Part shown: positions 35,725-61,485 of the stretch, piece after piece | How the letters are laid out: each line of letters opens with the position of its first letter | Numbering within the stretch: the first letter of the stretch is position 1 | NCBI GenBank assembly: GCA_903901975.1 | Contig: CAIUTB010000096.1 | Location: 1-64,000 of the forward strand | Length of the DNA: 64,000 bases | Direction of reading: 5' to 3' | Origin: an uncultured Bacteroidales bacterium | Lineage (GTDB): Bacteria > Bacteroidota > Bacteroidia > Bacteroidales > Paludibacteraceae | Notes under the pieces: model-generated | The model's input: the letters and a program-made list of their open reading frames with translations, nothing else | Databases searched by the model: none | Told to the model about the DNA's origin: nothing | Position numbers and translations under genes: made by a program

Positions 35725-36324
35725 ATGTCGAATACATTTAAAACCATAACATCAACCGGGGAAGGAATTTACAAAGAGAAAGGGAGCAAATTTCTGTCAT
35801 ATGCCATTCCTGTAATCTCCGCTGACGAAGCAAAAGAAAATGTAAAAGACTATCGGAAGCGTTTTTTCGATGCACGGCATGTTTGTTATGCCTGGATGTT
35901 AGGTGCAGAACGGACTGAATTTCGCGCCAATGATGATGGGGAACCTTCGGGAACTGCCGGTCGACCAATACTTGGTCAAATAAATTCACGTGATTTGACT
36001 AATGTGCTGGTAATTGTAGTACGTTATTTTGGTGGTATTTTGCTGGGTACAGGTGGTTTAGTGGTCGCCTACAAAGAAGCGGCGGCAAATGCACTCAATC
36101 AGACTGAAATTTTGGAGAAAAATGTTGAAGAAAATATTCAAATTAAATTTGATTACCTGCAAATGAACGAAGTAATGAAAATTATTAAAGATTCTGATGC
36201 TCAAATAACAGATCAGTTATTCGATAACGAATGTCTAATCAGCTTTTCAATGAGTAAATCCAACATTGAAAGCATATTGAAAAAACTCAAAAAAATTAAT
36301 TGTGTGATAAATCATGAAAATTAA
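35725..36324 (+). CDS. YigZ/IMPACT family protein
   Basis: A 199-aa protein with the UPF0029/Impact N-terminal domain: GIYKEKGSKFLSYAIPV, FFDARHVCYAWMLG, RANDDGEPSGTAGRPIL, and VIVVRYFGGILLGTGGLVVAYKEAAANAL. A C-terminal DUF1949-like ferredoxin fold follows (IKFDYLQMNEVMKIIKDSD). Full family length. Members bind nucleic acid or ribosome-associated factors and in eukaryotes modulate GCN2. The bacterial role is unsettled. Single gene with its own promoter. Confidence 0.92.
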   Translation: MSNTFKTITSTGEGIYKEKGSKFLSYAIPVISADEAKENVKDYRKRFFDARHVCYAWMLGAERTEFRANDDGEPSGTAGRPILGQINSRDLTNVLVIVVRYFGGILLGTGGLVVAYKEAAANALNQTEILEKNVEENIQIKFDYLQMNEVMKIIKDSDAQITDQLFDNECLISFSMSKSNIESILKKLKKINCVINHEN

Positions 36325-36368: not shown

Positions 36369-36376
36369 TATCTTTG
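36369..36376 (+). promoter_or_regulatory. -7 element of the pyrB leader transcript
   Basis: TATCTTTG matches TAnnTTTG. It predicts initiation near 36382-36385, giving a ~245-nt leader before pyrB that contains a terminator hairpin. Confidence 0.6.
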
Positions 36377-36386
36377 TGGTCGAAAA

Positions 36387-36485
36387 ATGAGAACGAGAAA
36401 CTGTAAATATTTTTTCGAAGAAAGCAGCTCACAGCAAAATAGTTGCAAGGAAAAGTTGCCCCTTAGAAATTCAAAACCAATATAA
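36387..36485 (+). CDS. Putative pyrB leader peptide (32 codons)
   Basis: An ATG a few bases after the predicted transcription start opens a 32-codon frame (MRTRNCKYFFEE...). Its UAU-UUU-UUC codons form a U-rich tract (36408-36416). The TAA at 36483-36485 lies inside the 5' arm of the terminator hairpin at 36475-36506. In the E. coli pyrBI system a ribosome finishing the leader closely behind RNA polymerase prevents terminator folding when UTP is low. The geometry here is the same. A frame of this length could occur by chance, so translation is inferred rather than shown. Confidence 0.45.
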   Translation: MRTRNCKYFFEESSSQQNSCKEKLPLRNSKPI

Positions 36486-36514
36486 ATCTGTGCAGATTTG
36501 TGTTGGTTTTTTTT
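36474..36514 (+). terminator. Terminator/attenuator hairpin in the pyrB leader
   Basis: AACCAATATAAATCTG (36475-36490) pairs with CAGATTTGTGTTGGTT (36493-36508) over all 16 positions, two as G-U, with only two unpaired bases at the tip. Eight T follow. It lies ~120 nt upstream of the pyrB ATG and downstream of the promoter, so read-through must be regulated for pyrB to be made. Stretch 36515-36627 shows no further gene beyond an 11-codon ATG frame. Confidence 0.85.
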
Positions 36515-36627
36515 CTTAGCCCTAACCCATAAATAGGGAACAAGAGTATTTGAAATGAAAAAATTTAAAGCAACTAAAATAAAAATATAAACTAACTAAA
36601 GCCACTTTTGGGGTTTGAGGTCAACTT

Positions 36628-37557
36628 ATGAGCAATAACTGTTTAGTATCTATTTCCGATTATAGCAAGGACGAGATTTTGTCAATTCTCGATTCGGCAG
36701 CTGAATTTGAAGCCAATCCAAACCGTAAAACCCTGGATGGCAAGGTGATTGCCACTTTATTTTTCGAACCTTCTACCCGTACACGCTTAAGTTTTGAAAC
36801 AGCTGTAATTCGGTTGGGCGGTTCCATTATTGGTTTTTCAGATGCAGCCACGAGTAGTTCGTCGAAAGGTGAAACGCTGAACGACACCATTCATATGGTG
36901 AGTTGTTATGCCGATGCTATCGTGATGCGTCACCCACTCGAAGGTGCTGCACGCTATGCTGCCGAAGTTTCACCTGTGCCTATAATCAACGCCGGAGACG
37001 GAGCGAATCAGCATCCGTCACAAACTTTGCTCGATTTGTATTCAATTCTGAAAACACAGGGAACGCTCGAAAATCTGACCATTTGTCTGGTTGGAGATTT
37101 AAAATATGGTCGCACGGTTCATTCACTCATTATGGCCATGTCGCATTTCAATCCAAGCTTTAAATTTATTGCTCCTGATGAACTCAAAATGCCCGACGAA
37201 TACAAGGTTTTCTGTGAGAAAAATAACATTTCCTACACAGAAGAAAAAGAGCTGACGGATAATTTCAACGATGCCGATATACTTTATATGACTCGCGTTC
37301 AGAAAGAACGGTTTCAGGATTTAATGGAATATGAACGTGTTAAAAATGTTTATACGCTGAAAAATGATATGTTGTCGAATTCGAAACCGAACCTTCGGAT
37401 TTTGCACCCACTACCACGTGTCAACGAAATAGATCCGGATGTTGATAGCAACGAAAAAGCATATTATTTTCGTCAGGCACAAAATGGGCTCTATGTTAGG
37501 CAAGCGATTGTTAGTAAGGTACTTGATAGCAGTAAGCAGCAAGAAAGTAAGCGGTAA
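36628..37557 (+). CDS. pyrB: Aspartate carbamoyltransferase catalytic chain
   Basis: A 309-aa enzyme that joins carbamoyl phosphate and aspartate to carbamoyl aspartate, the first committed pyrimidine step. Visible motifs: [15 protein letters not shown] (carbamoyl-phosphate site), [56 protein letters not shown], and [16 protein letters not shown]. Length is normal. The last ~11 residues ([11 protein letters not shown]) are encoded by an AGTAAGC-type repeat. The regulatory chain gene follows after 41 nt. A leader attenuator precedes it. Confidence 0.97.
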
Positions 37558-37598: not shown

Positions 37599-38054
37599 AT
37601 GGGAAAAGAATTAAAAGTAGCGGCACTTAAAAACGGAACAGTGATAGATCATATTCCGGCAGACAAATTATTCCAGGTGGTTTCAATTCTCCATTTAGAT
37701 AAAACTTTGAATCAGATAACATTAGCTAACAATTTAGATAGTGCGAAAATTGGTTCAAAAGGTTTGATCAAAATTTCGGAACGTGCATTGGAAGAAGATG
37801 AAACTAATAAAATTGCTTTGATATGTCCCAATGCAAAAATCAATATTATCCGTGATTTTGTTGTTGTTGAAAAGCGTCCTTTAATTTTACCGGAAGAAAT
37901 TCGTGAAATTGTTCAATGTACCAATCCGGTTTGTATTACTAATAATCAACCGGTTACAACACGTTTTCATGTTCAAAATCAGAATGGACAAATTGTGCTG
38001 AAATGCCATTATTGCGAACGTGAAGTGATTCAGGAAAAGGTAAAAATCAAGTAA
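37599..38054 (+). CDS. pyrI: Aspartate carbamoyltransferase regulatory chain
   Basis: A 151-aa allosteric subunit that binds CTP/ATP and holds catalytic trimers together. The N-terminal domain starts MGKELKVAALKNGTVIDHIPADK. The C-terminal zinc domain has the four Cys in VQCTNPVCITN and LKCHYCEREV. It follows pyrB in the same operon, so ATCase here should be the dodecameric allosteric type. Confidence 0.97.
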   Translation: MGKELKVAALKNGTVIDHIPADKLFQVVSILHLDKTLNQITLANNLDSAKIGSKGLIKISERALEEDETNKIALICPNAKINIIRDFVVVEKRPLILPEEIREIVQCTNPVCITNNQPVTTRFHVQNQNGQIVLKCHYCEREVIQEKVKIK

Positions 38055-38123: not shown

Positions 38124-38762
38124 ATGATTTCAAATAAAGGTAAAATTATTACATCGCAGTCTCCCTCTCCTTTAGAGAGGGTTGGGGTGAGGTCTAAAAT
38201 AAGTTGGAAACCCGGAACATTGATTTATCCTTTACCGGCAGCATTGATTTCGTGTGGAAGTACACCAGAAGATTATAACTTATTCACTGTAAGCTGGATG
38301 GGAACTATTTGTTCCAATCCACCCATGTGCTATATTTCAGTTCGGAAAGAGCGTCATTCCTACAATATTATCAAAGAAAGCGGTGAGTTTGTTATTAATC
38401 TTACCAACGAGGATTTGGCTTTTGCTGCTGACTGGTGTGGTGTGAGAAGCGGAAAAGATTACAACAAATTTGAAGAAATGAAGCTTACAGCTGTACAAGG
38501 AGAAATGGTGAAAGCGCCAATTGTCCAGGAATCACCCTTGTGTATTGAATGTAAAGTAAAAGAAATCATTGAGTTAGGTTCACACGATATGTTCATTTCT
38601 GATGTGATAAATGTGCAGGCCGATAGCCAATACATTGACCCCGAAACTGATACATTTAAATTGACGGATGCCAAACTGATAGCTTATTCGCACGGTCATT
38701 ATTACAAACTGGGTGAGGAAATCGGAAAGTTTGGATGGACGGTGCAAAAGAAGAAAAAGTGA
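38124..38762 (+). CDS. Flavin reductase family protein
   Basis: A 212-aa protein (191 aa if GTG 38187 is the start) with the FMN-binding split-barrel flavin-reductase domain: KISWKPGTLIYPLPAALISCG, NLFTVSWMGTICSNPPMCYISVRKERHSYNIIKESGEFVINL, ADWCGVRSGKDYNKFEEM. It is expected to use FMN with NAD(P)H or bind flavin. Residues about 11-24 from ATG 38124 (SQSPSPLERVGVRS) come from an inserted palindromic repeat. Homologous domains normally begin at KISWKPG, so the repeat seems to have replaced the original start. It follows pyrI on the same strand. Confidence 0.85.
   Translation: MISNKGKIITSQSPSPLERVGVRSKISWKPGTLIYPLPAALISCGSTPEDYNLFTVSWMGTICSNPPMCYISVRKERHSYNIIKESGEFVINLTNEDLAFAADWCGVRSGKDYNKFEEMKLTAVQGEMVKAPIVQESPLCIECKVKEIIELGSHDMFISDVINVQADSQYIDPETDTFKLTDAKLIAYSHGHYYKLGEEIGKFGWTVQKKKK
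38161..38193 (-). repeat. Palindromic intergenic repeat, CTCTCC type (copy 2)
   Basis: The inverted relative of 38057-38084 (CTCTCCTTTAGAGAGG core with GGGTTGGGGTGAGG arm). It is read through in frame by the flavin reductase ORF and supplies a possible GTG start at 38187. Confidence 0.75.
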
Positions 38763-38797: not shown

Positions 38798-39433
38798 ATG
38801 AAAAGAGAAATAGATATTGTAAACTGGAAACGCAGGGAACATTTCGATGTTTTCAGGAACTATGACGAACCTTTGTTCGGAATAACTGTTCGTGTAGAAT
38901 GTTCGGCAGCTTATCAAAAAGCAAAGAACTTCGGTTGGCCTTTTTCGTTATATTATTTGTATTTATCGATGAAAGTTGCAAACGAAATTGAAGAGTTTCG
39001 TTATCGCATTGAAGGTGATAAAGTGCTTTGCTATGATAGCGTGGGTGCCGGTCCGACTATATTTCGTGAAGATGAAACTTATGGTTATGCTTATATGCCC
39101 TATAACGAGAATATTGAAGTATTTATGAAACAAGCTACTGCCGAAGTTGAACGTGTAAAAGCCGAACGTGGATTGAAATTTCCTCATGCCGGCGAAGATA
39201 TTTTACATTACTCAACGCTACCGTGGGCGGATTTTACATCAACCAGCCATGCACGAAAATTTGATATAAGTCGTAGTATTCCCAAAATTACCTTTGGTAA
39301 AATTACGCGAAATAATGAAGAAATGTGGATGCCTGTTTCGGTTCATGTAAGTCATGCATTGATGGATGGTTTTCATGTAGGGAAATTTGTGGAAAGATTT
39401 CAGGAGCTATTAAGCTGCCCCCTAACCCCCTAA
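38798..39433 (+). CDS. Chloramphenicol-acetyltransferase-like (CatA family) protein
   Basis: A 211-aa protein with the CAT trimer fold: NWKRREHFDVFRNYDEPLFGITVRVE, FSLYYLYLSMKVANEIEEFRYRI, LPWADFTSTSHAR, and the catalytic HALMDG in VSVHVSHALMDGFHVGKFVE, which provides the general-base His. The fold acetylates a hydroxyl from acetyl-CoA. Many chromosomal relatives are not true resistance enzymes, so the acceptor is uncertain. The last residues (CPLTP) and stop codon are supplied by the inverted repeat at 39416-39442. Confidence 0.85.
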   Translation: MKREIDIVNWKRREHFDVFRNYDEPLFGITVRVECSAAYQKAKNFGWPFSLYYLYLSMKVANEIEEFRYRIEGDKVLCYDSVGAGPTIFREDETYGYAYMPYNENIEVFMKQATAEVERVKAERGLKFPHAGEDILHYSTLPWADFTSTSHARKFDISRSIPKITFGKITRNNEEMWMPVSVHVSHALMDGFHVGKFVERFQELLSCPLTP

Positions 39434-39442
39434 AGGGGGAAT
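39416..39442 (+). repeat. 27-nt C5/G5 palindromic repeat, left of unknown gene
   Basis: Contains ACCCCCTAAAGGGGGA. It is an exact reverse complement of 40135-40161 over all 27 positions. The pair brackets the 39502-40095 gene. This copy runs into the 3' end of the CAT-like gene. Confidence 0.9.
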
Positions 39443-40134: not shown

Positions 40135-40161
40135 ATTCCCCCTTTAGGGGGTTAGGGGGCA
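40135..40161 (-). repeat. 27-nt C5/G5 palindromic repeat, right of unknown gene
   Basis: Exact inverted copy of 39416-39442, ending 13 nt before glyA. Together they delimit a ~745-bp segment. Confidence 0.9.
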
Positions 40162-41526: not shown

Positions 41527-42522
41527 ATGACAGAACACATCTTCGAACTTTCAGAACACACAGACACCACCGTTTATTATGGGGTGAATAATGCCAATAT
41601 TCAGGTTTTGAAAAACCTACATCCAAACTTGCGATTAATGGCTCGTGGACATGTGGTAAAAATTTCGGGAAGTCACGAAGAAGTTGAACGTTTAATAGAT
41701 AATCTCAGTAAAATTGAACGATTTTCATTGGATAACAATTCGTTATCCGAAGAAAACATCATCGAAATCGTAAAAGGAAGTGAGCCGGTTGAAATAAAGT
41801 TTGAAAACCTGATTCTTCACGGCATCAATGGCAAATCCATAATGGCCCGCACTCCAAATCAGCAAAAACTGGTTAAAGATTTTGAGACGAACGATTTACT
41901 TTTTGCCATTGGACCTGCAGGTTCGGGAAAAACGTACACAGCGATTGCTTTGGCAGTTCGCTCGTTGAAAAATCGGGAAGTAAAAAAGATTATTCTCAGT
42001 CGTCCGGCTGTAGAGGCGGGTGAAAAGCTTGGATTCCTTCCCGGCGATATGAAAGAAAAAATTGATCCTTATCTGCAACCACTCTACGATGCTTTGCAGG
42101 ATATGGTCACCCCATTGAAACTGAAAGAATACATGGAAAATGGCACTATTCAGATTGCTCCACTAGCTTTTATGCGTGGGCGAACGCTGAGCGATGCGGT
42201 GGTTATTCTGGACGAAGCACAAAACTCCACTACCATGCAAATAAAGATGTTTCTGACACGTATGGGGTTAAACACAAAAATGATTGTAACAGGTGATATG
42301 ACGCAGATTGACTTGCCATACGCTCAAAAATCTGGATTAATTGACTCGTTAGAAGTACTGAAAAATGTAAAGGGAATAGCCAAAGTAGAATTCGACGTAA
42401 AAGACATTGTACGCCACAAACTCGTTCAACGAATTGTGGAAGCGTATGAGAAAAGAGGAAAAGAACCCCTAGCCCCTAAAGGGGAACAAGAAAAAAACGT
42501 CATAATACTAAAAAAGCCATAA
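41527..42522 (+). CDS. phoH: PhoH-like ATPase
   Basis: A 331-aa protein from ATG 41527 (MTEHIFELSEH); a TTG at 41500 is unlikely. An N-terminal KH-like region (LRLMARGHVVKISGSHEEVERL) precedes the PhoH P-loop domain: Walker A FAIGPAGSGKTYTAIALAVR, LSRPAVEAGEKLGFLPGDMKEK, Walker B VVILDEAQNSTTMQIKMFLTRMG, and VTGDMTQIDLP. PhoH proteins are implicated in RNA metabolism and translation stress. The C-terminal EPLAPKGEQ is encoded by a palindromic repeat (42464-42486). Confidence 0.93.
   Translation: MTEHIFELSEHTDTTVYYGVNNANIQVLKNLHPNLRLMARGHVVKISGSHEEVERLIDNLSKIERFSLDNNSLSEENIIEIVKGSEPVEIKFENLILHGINGKSIMARTPNQQKLVKDFETNDLLFAIGPAGSGKTYTAIALAVRSLKNREVKKIILSRPAVEAGEKLGFLPGDMKEKIDPYLQPLYDALQDMVTPLKLKEYMENGTIQIAPLAFMRGRTLSDAVVILDEAQNSTTMQIKMFLTRMGLNTKMIVTGDMTQIDLPYAQKSGLIDSLEVLKNVKGIAKVEFDVKDIVRHKLVQRIVEAYEKRGKEPLAPKGEQEKNVIILKKP
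42464..42486 (+). repeat. C4/G4 palindromic repeat inside the phoH 3' end
   Basis: CCCCTAGCCCCTAAAGGGGA, a shortened relative of 39416-39442. It is translated in frame as part of the PhoH tail. Confidence 0.75.
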
Positions 42523-61458: not shown

Positions 61459-61485
61459 CCCCAAACCCCTAAAGGGGCTTATTAA
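61459..61485 (+). repeat. C4/G4 palindromic repeat between kdgK and kdgA
   Basis: CCCCAAACCCCTAAAGGGGC, related to 39416-39442 and 42464-42486. It starts 3 nt after the kdgK stop. An inverted relative follows at 61506-61527. Confidence 0.75.

Follow-up and report, generated by a model that had tools for sequence, protein, structure and literature searches.

A leader reading frame that runs into an intrinsic terminator suggests translation-coupled attenuation of pyrBI in Bacteroidales

Attenuation of the pyrBI type is, to our knowledge, known only from enteric bacteria. PyrR-dependent pyr attenuators of Bacillus also place a terminator ahead of the pyr genes. Bacteroidota initiate translation mostly without Shine-Dalgarno pairing. 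In the E. coli pyrBI operon, as described in the consulted sections of one report, tight coupling of transcription and translation over the leader prevents formation of the terminator, so that the ribosome is the antiterminator (PMC5021804). For Bacteroidota, leader-peptide attenuation has been described at amino acid operons of Flavobacterium psychrophilum (PMC9723704), and a transcript map of Bacteroides thetaiotaomicron includes small ORFs reminiscent of leader peptides, with no mention of pyrB in the part of that report used here (PMC7366714). Among the matches listed by a literature search that was thin on subscription journals, and is therefore weak on this point, we recognized no report of pyr attenuation in Bacteroidota.

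We analyzed a 64,000-nucleotide stretch of DNA from an uncultured Bacteroidales bacterium of the Paludibacteraceae (the window), in which pyrB and pyrI are preceded by a leader with several distinct elements (Table 1). The best match of its PyrB among named genomes (best 80 of 577 kept) was from a Paludibacter metagenome-assembled genome (MAG) (93%). A first-pass annotation of this DNA had described a promoter element, a 32-codon ORF, a T-rich tract, and a terminator with eight T residues; all were found in the places it had given, and the leader stop codon does lie within the 5′ arm of the terminator. The annotation had also set the ORF at the predicted transcription start. The ORF itself held up, but its placement relative to the transcription start was revised: the ATG is 10 nt past the TATCTTTG box, and with transcription predicted to start 5 nt past the box, the ATG would lie ~6 nt inside the transcript, behind a 5′ UTR of that length. 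In Flavobacterium, the TAnnTTTG box has been placed at −12 to −5 in the sections consulted (PMC9723704). The terminator is real, with 17 pairs counted in its stem, only 3 of them G-C. The two strands of the window hold 28 and 25 terminator-like sites, of which this one alone combines a box, an ATG, and an ORF that reaches the stem.

Table 1. Elements of the pyrB leader and adjacent genes in the window
Feature	Position	Strand	Basis
yigZ, upstream of pyrB	35725-36324	+	Same strand as pyrB/pyrI
Promoter −7 box TATCTTTG, pyrB leader transcript	36369..36376	+	Read from sequence
Predicted leader ORF, pyrL-like, 32 codons plus stop, peptide MRTRNCKYFFEESSSQQNSCKEKLPLRNSKPI	36387..36485	+	ORF statistics, pN/pS 0.48
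AUAU (codons 7-8) then U run, AUAUUUUUUC, candidate promoter-proximal pause tract	36407..36416	+	Position and T-richness
T-rich tract UAUUUUUUC within leader ORF	36408-36416	+	Sequence
Leader hairpin P1, pairing 36424-36429 to 36441-36446, candidate pause hairpin	36424..36446	+	RNAalifold consensus, covariation
UUG codon 24, 10 to 12 nt past P1 end, candidate pause site	36456..36458	+	Inferred from position relative to P1
Intrinsic terminator hairpin (putative attenuator)	36473..36510	+	RNAfold-based scan, −17.6 kcal/mol; in consensus fold
Leader stop TAA, within terminator 5′ arm	36483..36485	+	Sequence
Terminator T8	36507-36514	+	Sequence
pyrB, aspartate carbamoyltransferase catalytic subunit	36628..37557	+	TIGR00670, 381.1 bits
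pyrI, aspartate carbamoyltransferase regulatory subunit	37599..38054	+	TIGR00240, 167.5 bits

Other features of the window were recorded alongside the leader. A REP-like palindrome, CCCCTTTAGGGGTTTGGGG, had 7 matches with at most 3 mismatches (0.12 expected), two pairs of which overlap; the sites are 36602-36620 (degenerate), 39419-39438, 40139-40158, 42466-42484, and 61459-61477, and 9 exact copies were present genome-wide. The degenerate copy stands directly before the pyrB start, and by eye a similar arrangement is seen in several relatives from the genus. A gene for a flavin reductase-like protein (38124-38762) lies between pyrI and a gene for a chloramphenicol acetyltransferase-like protein (PF00302, 38798-39433), which is thus two genes downstream of pyrI. 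A group II intron domain (Rfam RF00029, 65.3 bits) was found at 53-128.

The survey of pyrB upstream regions drew on 80 loci from named genomes (the best 80 of 577) and on others from genus and order genomes, so sampling across the order is uneven. From 132 loci we obtained 122 distinct upstream regions (3 were too short and 7 duplicates were removed), and 88 further regions yielded 84 after removal of 4 duplicates, for a total of 206. Terminators were called with an RNAfold-based scanner. At the cut-off used, 93 regions lacked a terminator, 19 had a terminator without a box, 5 lacked an ATG, and 89 had all three. The ORF beginning at the first ATG past the box reached the stem in 71 of these 89, where dinucleotide shuffles predict 16.5, and in 38 of 52 clusters formed at ~70% similarity, where they predict 9.3; these expectations are a guide and not a probability, because the clusters are related by descent and the thresholds for terminator energy, box score, and distance were fixed after some sequences had been seen. 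In the other 14 of the 52 clusters, gut Paludibacteraceae among them, all three elements were present but no ORF extended to the stem. That a tiny ORF running into a terminator has been kept in so many relatives suggests that a moving ribosome decides pyrB transcription.

Where PyrB was at least 84% identical, 31 of 36 loci passed; of the five failures, L109 and L112 had no terminator, the ORFs of L009 and L102 were too short, and one locus lacked an ATG by the rule applied. The rule misses some leaders: L103 was scored as ATG-less though its ORF reaches the stem, and L009 fails on its first ATG, while by eye the frame of another ATG, 5 nt further on, looks open into the terminator. None of 20 Bacteroides loci had the full leader (18 without a terminator, 1 without a box, and 1 without an ATG). 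Three Bacteroides loci without a leader terminator (L027, L036, and L043) share a near-identical stretch from box to pyrB (CTCCGGTAAAACAAGTTCTATCC...), which may conceal another control.

For leader geometry, we examined the 38 representatives whose ORF extends to the stem. The box, either TATCTTTG itself or a close variant (TACCTTTG, TACTTTTG, TAAATTTG, and others), lies a median of 9 nt before the leader ATG, and the median distance from ATG to stem is 92. The stop codon falls in the 5′ arm in 17 representatives (in 4 of them it starts 1 nt before the arm), in the loop or 3′ arm in 5, and past the terminator in 14, several of these within a few nucleotides of the pyrB start; in 2, no stop was found before pyrB. 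Whether the frame ends in the 5′ arm or beyond it, a ribosome translating it would be brought onto that arm. At L050, L114, L135, and L180, the leader stop and the pyrB start overlap (stop at +1), and translational coupling may there add to attenuation.

Since yigZ ends upstream on the same strand, the hairpin could be the yigZ terminator, with the pyrB promoter downstream of it. We regard this as highly improbable: the promoter box sits between yigZ and the hairpin, and a TAnnTTTG element was found between terminator and pyrB in 3 of 71 cases, which is chance level (2.9 expected). In addition, the stem and the yigZ stop are 148 nt apart, the largest of only 10 gene-end distances in the window, and the relative L097 has tRNA genes and another terminator upstream instead.

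Coding constraint was then estimated for the genus. Twenty-nine genus-level leaders passed; the divergent L105, L106, L107, and L111 were excluded, and removal of near-identical sequences reduced the remaining 25 to 22. In these 22 sequences, pN/pS was 0.48 in frame, whereas the two alternative frames gave 1.10 and 0.88, and 0 of 300 column shuffles gave a value as low (null mean, 0.81). The calculation was repeated for 7 small groups outside the main genus set, with family labels taken from record titles or assigned by us. One group was clear (0.44), three were weakly lower in frame (0.61, 0.62, and 0.80), one gave no signal (1.02), and two had no synonymous changes. The clear group comprised three Barnesiella-like leaders (1.11 and 1.36 in the other frames); Prolixibacteraceae-like leaders gave 0.62 (0.93 and 0.76) and Marinifilaceae-like leaders 0.80 (0.93 and 0.96). 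No coding signal was found in three divergent Paludibacter-like leaders (1.02, with 0.66 in another frame). The remaining three groups are pairs and carry little information. From these patterns, we infer that the leader ORF is translated. The first-pass annotation had allowed that a 32-codon frame might arise by chance and had named loss of the frame with retention of the hairpin as the observation that would count against its reading. When this comparison was made, the frame proved conserved, being open into the stem far above expectation and carrying a coding substitution pattern, and a chance origin is not borne out.

A frame under constraint might also encode a small protein with a function of its own, the terminator serving only to set the level of pyrB. 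The pN/pS values below 1 in the genus and in one other group would fit such a protein, but the constraint is mild, the peptides differ among families while the layout persists, and the frames that reach the stem are anywhere between 12 and 85 codons long. They end within the terminator or past it, often near the pyrB start, and the leader peptide has no Pfam match at an E value of 1. We consider a free-standing small protein extremely unlikely.

To define RNA structures in the leader, we folded 26 leaders with RNAalifold. The consensus consisted of the terminator and the hairpin P1. In P1, 96.2% of cells were paired, and 3 of the 6 pairs had a compensatory change, each in one sequence; 2 to 13 of 500 shuffles reached the observed value of four measures, and 49 reached the pair-type count. 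Leader segments of 36 cluster representatives were more stable than shuffles (mean z, −1.15). Measured from the ATG, the median end of the best leader hairpin is +62.5 (quartiles, 57 and 67), although terminator starts range between +74 and +165, so the hairpin is tied more closely to the start codon than to the terminator. T content peaks 12 nt past the hairpin (0.56), which is suggestive only. The UUG of codon 24 is a candidate pause site by the hairpin-to-3′-end spacing of hairpin-stabilized pauses. At E. coli pyrL, the consulted part of one report places a pause ~24 nt from the one studied previously; it was not NusA dependent and was not rescued by compensatory hairpin mutations (PMC9291695), and P1 thus need not act as a pause hairpin. 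Folding of the 36 representatives for an antiterminator that would compete for the 5′ arm gave a median gain of −1.0 kcal/mol, with a single representative at −6 or below. With no competing antiterminator in 35 of 36, an advancing ribosome would be the simplest antiterminator.

Conserved structures could also mean that the ORF is incidental and that a pyrimidine-binding protein or an RNA switch works the terminator. The terminator and P1 are indeed conserved RNA structures, and in three gut Paludibacteraceae (L016, L017, and L020), the box and terminator are kept with a very short leader and no ORF reaching the stem; these leaders are possibly a decayed or ORF-free form. The ORF statistics and the coding substitution pattern argue against such a switch, as does the lack of an alternative fold of the 5′ arm. 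A search of the genome for PyrR gave nothing above the cut-off and two weak partial matches, and no Rfam family reached its gathering score in the leader, where the 9 sub-threshold matches obtained under a relaxed limit were far below theirs. Control by PyrR in particular was rejected, with no PyrR protein above the cut-off in the genome and no match to a PyrR-binding RNA; the leader differs from the Bacillus attenuators on both counts and also in being coding. An RNA attenuator indifferent to the ORF is, in our judgment, very unlikely.

We next considered the sequence between the start codon and P1. ATAT occurs at ORF nt 20 or 21 in 19 of 36 cluster representatives and at any other position in 2 at most; among the 31 representatives with PyrB below 85% identity, 14 have it at nt 20 or 21. 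Codons 8 to 13 have a T content of 0.358 (95% of shuffles were below 0.335) and a Phe/Tyr fraction of 0.241 (95% below 0.194), and for each measure 0 of 2,000 codon shuffles were as high. Tyr is the most position-locked residue, occupying codon 8 in 15 of 36 representatives. Within the genus, UAUUUUUUC is the prevailing sequence of this region, and all 22 leaders encode Tyr at codon 8 and Phe at codon 10. No long U run is shared across clusters, the U6 being genus specific; outside the genus, AUAU and a loose enrichment in U are partly retained. Given the usual footprints of polymerase and ribosome, a polymerase within the AUAU/U-rich stretch would only just have cleared the start codon for a ribosome.

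The same Tyr and Phe codons, together with the constraint on the leader peptide in the genus, could indicate a translation-coupled attenuator that senses something other than UTP, namely, Tyr- or Phe-tRNA supply, general translation capacity, or arrest by the nascent peptide. We think this rather unlikely. A stalled ribosome would have no antiterminator to free, and an early stall would favor termination, the wrong sign for an amino acid attenuator. The peptides also vary among families in which the layout is constant, and pyrB is no gene of aromatic amino acid synthesis. Attenuators of the trp and his type resemble this leader in having a leader peptide, a terminator, and a hairpin in the leader, but amino acid attenuation of that kind was rejected: the leader peptides contain no run of codons for the pathway, pyrB belongs to pyrimidine synthesis and makes no amino acid, and no competing antiterminator was found.

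The closest counterpart is the pyrL-pyrBI leader of E. coli. The operon is the same (54% identity for PyrB and 43% for PyrI), a leader ORF reaches the terminator in both, and a hairpin is followed by a pyrimidine-rich tract and then the terminator at nearly equal distances. Counted from the ATG, E. coli K-12 pyrL has its best hairpin at +30 to +53 (core, +32 to +50), T5 at +60, the stem at +88, and T8 at +107; in the window, P1 spans +37 to +60, UUG follows at +69 (UU at +69/+70), and the stem begins at +86. These distances, measured with similar scripts, bear out the likeness to E. coli pyrBI that the first-pass annotation had proposed. There are also differences. The predicted UTR in the window is ~6 nt without a Shine-Dalgarno sequence, whereas that of E. 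coli is ~18 nt with GGGAGG if transcription starts at AATTTG, which we take to be the start. The pyrL ORF passes through its terminator, as do the ORFs of 14 of 38 representatives; the frame of the window and those of 17 of 38 clusters end within the 5′ arm. The peptide differs, the main U run precedes the hairpin in the window but follows it in E. coli, and the predicted start site in the window lacks a U run that could serve reiterative transcription. A similar response to UTP is proposed by analogy, from the layout. PyrB matches (E value, 1e-40) were found in 15 of 67 genomes of the class outside Bacteroidales and were 36 to 39% identical; identity to the E. coli proteins is higher, so operon and leader may share inheritance with E. 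coli. The annotation had suggested an independent or unreported version: no earlier report was recognized in our literature search, and the leader may be of independent origin or share ancestry with E. coli pyrL.

Taken together, the pyrBI leader is very probably a translation-coupled attenuator. That it is also of the pyrBI type, with UTP-sensitive pausing as its input, is a joint claim that we consider likely. Directly legible in the DNA are the anatomy, the selection for a frame open into the terminator, the coding constraint in the genus, the covariation of P1, and, by folding, the absence of a competing antiterminator; the start site, occupancy by a ribosome, the pausing, and UTP as its signal are proposed from these. 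We conclude that a leader attenuator of this type, read from near-leaderless leaders, appears to be widespread in Bacteroidales. In the same genome, carA and pyrE had no comparable leader by eye, and the uracil-permease family had no match.

The mechanism we propose is as follows. RNA polymerase would initiate ~5 nt past TATCTTTG and transcribe a near-leaderless 32-codon ORF, slowing in the U-rich stretch 20 to 30 nt past the start codon and again past P1. When pyrimidine nucleotides are scarce, the pauses would lengthen, allowing a ribosome to load and to trail the polymerase closely. On reaching the stop codon in the 5′ arm, the ribosome would cover the arm and block the terminator, and pyrBI would be transcribed. 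With plentiful UTP, the polymerase would outpace the ribosome, the hairpin would form, and transcription would terminate.

A wider reading, which we offer tentatively and hold to be nearly as probable as its opposite, is that Bacteroidales possess an old, order-wide, Shine-Dalgarno-free form of pyrBI attenuation. In it, the position-locked AUAU/U-rich stretch and a hairpin kept at a constant distance from the promoter would delay the polymerase, according to nucleotide supply, at the very moment when the near-leaderless start codon first becomes able to take a ribosome, so that the nucleotide level would set the coupling of transcription to translation.

In Bacillus subtilis, transcription and translation are reported to be uncoupled, according to the consulted part of a review (PMC7819879). 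An attenuator of the pyrL type would need coupling on this leader, and coupling in Bacteroidota thereby becomes testable at a single locus. The proposed attenuator could also account for pyrBI control where no PyrR is recognized (one genome searched). If correct, it would extend a textbook mechanism of enteric bacteria to a phylum that mostly initiates translation without Shine-Dalgarno pairing.
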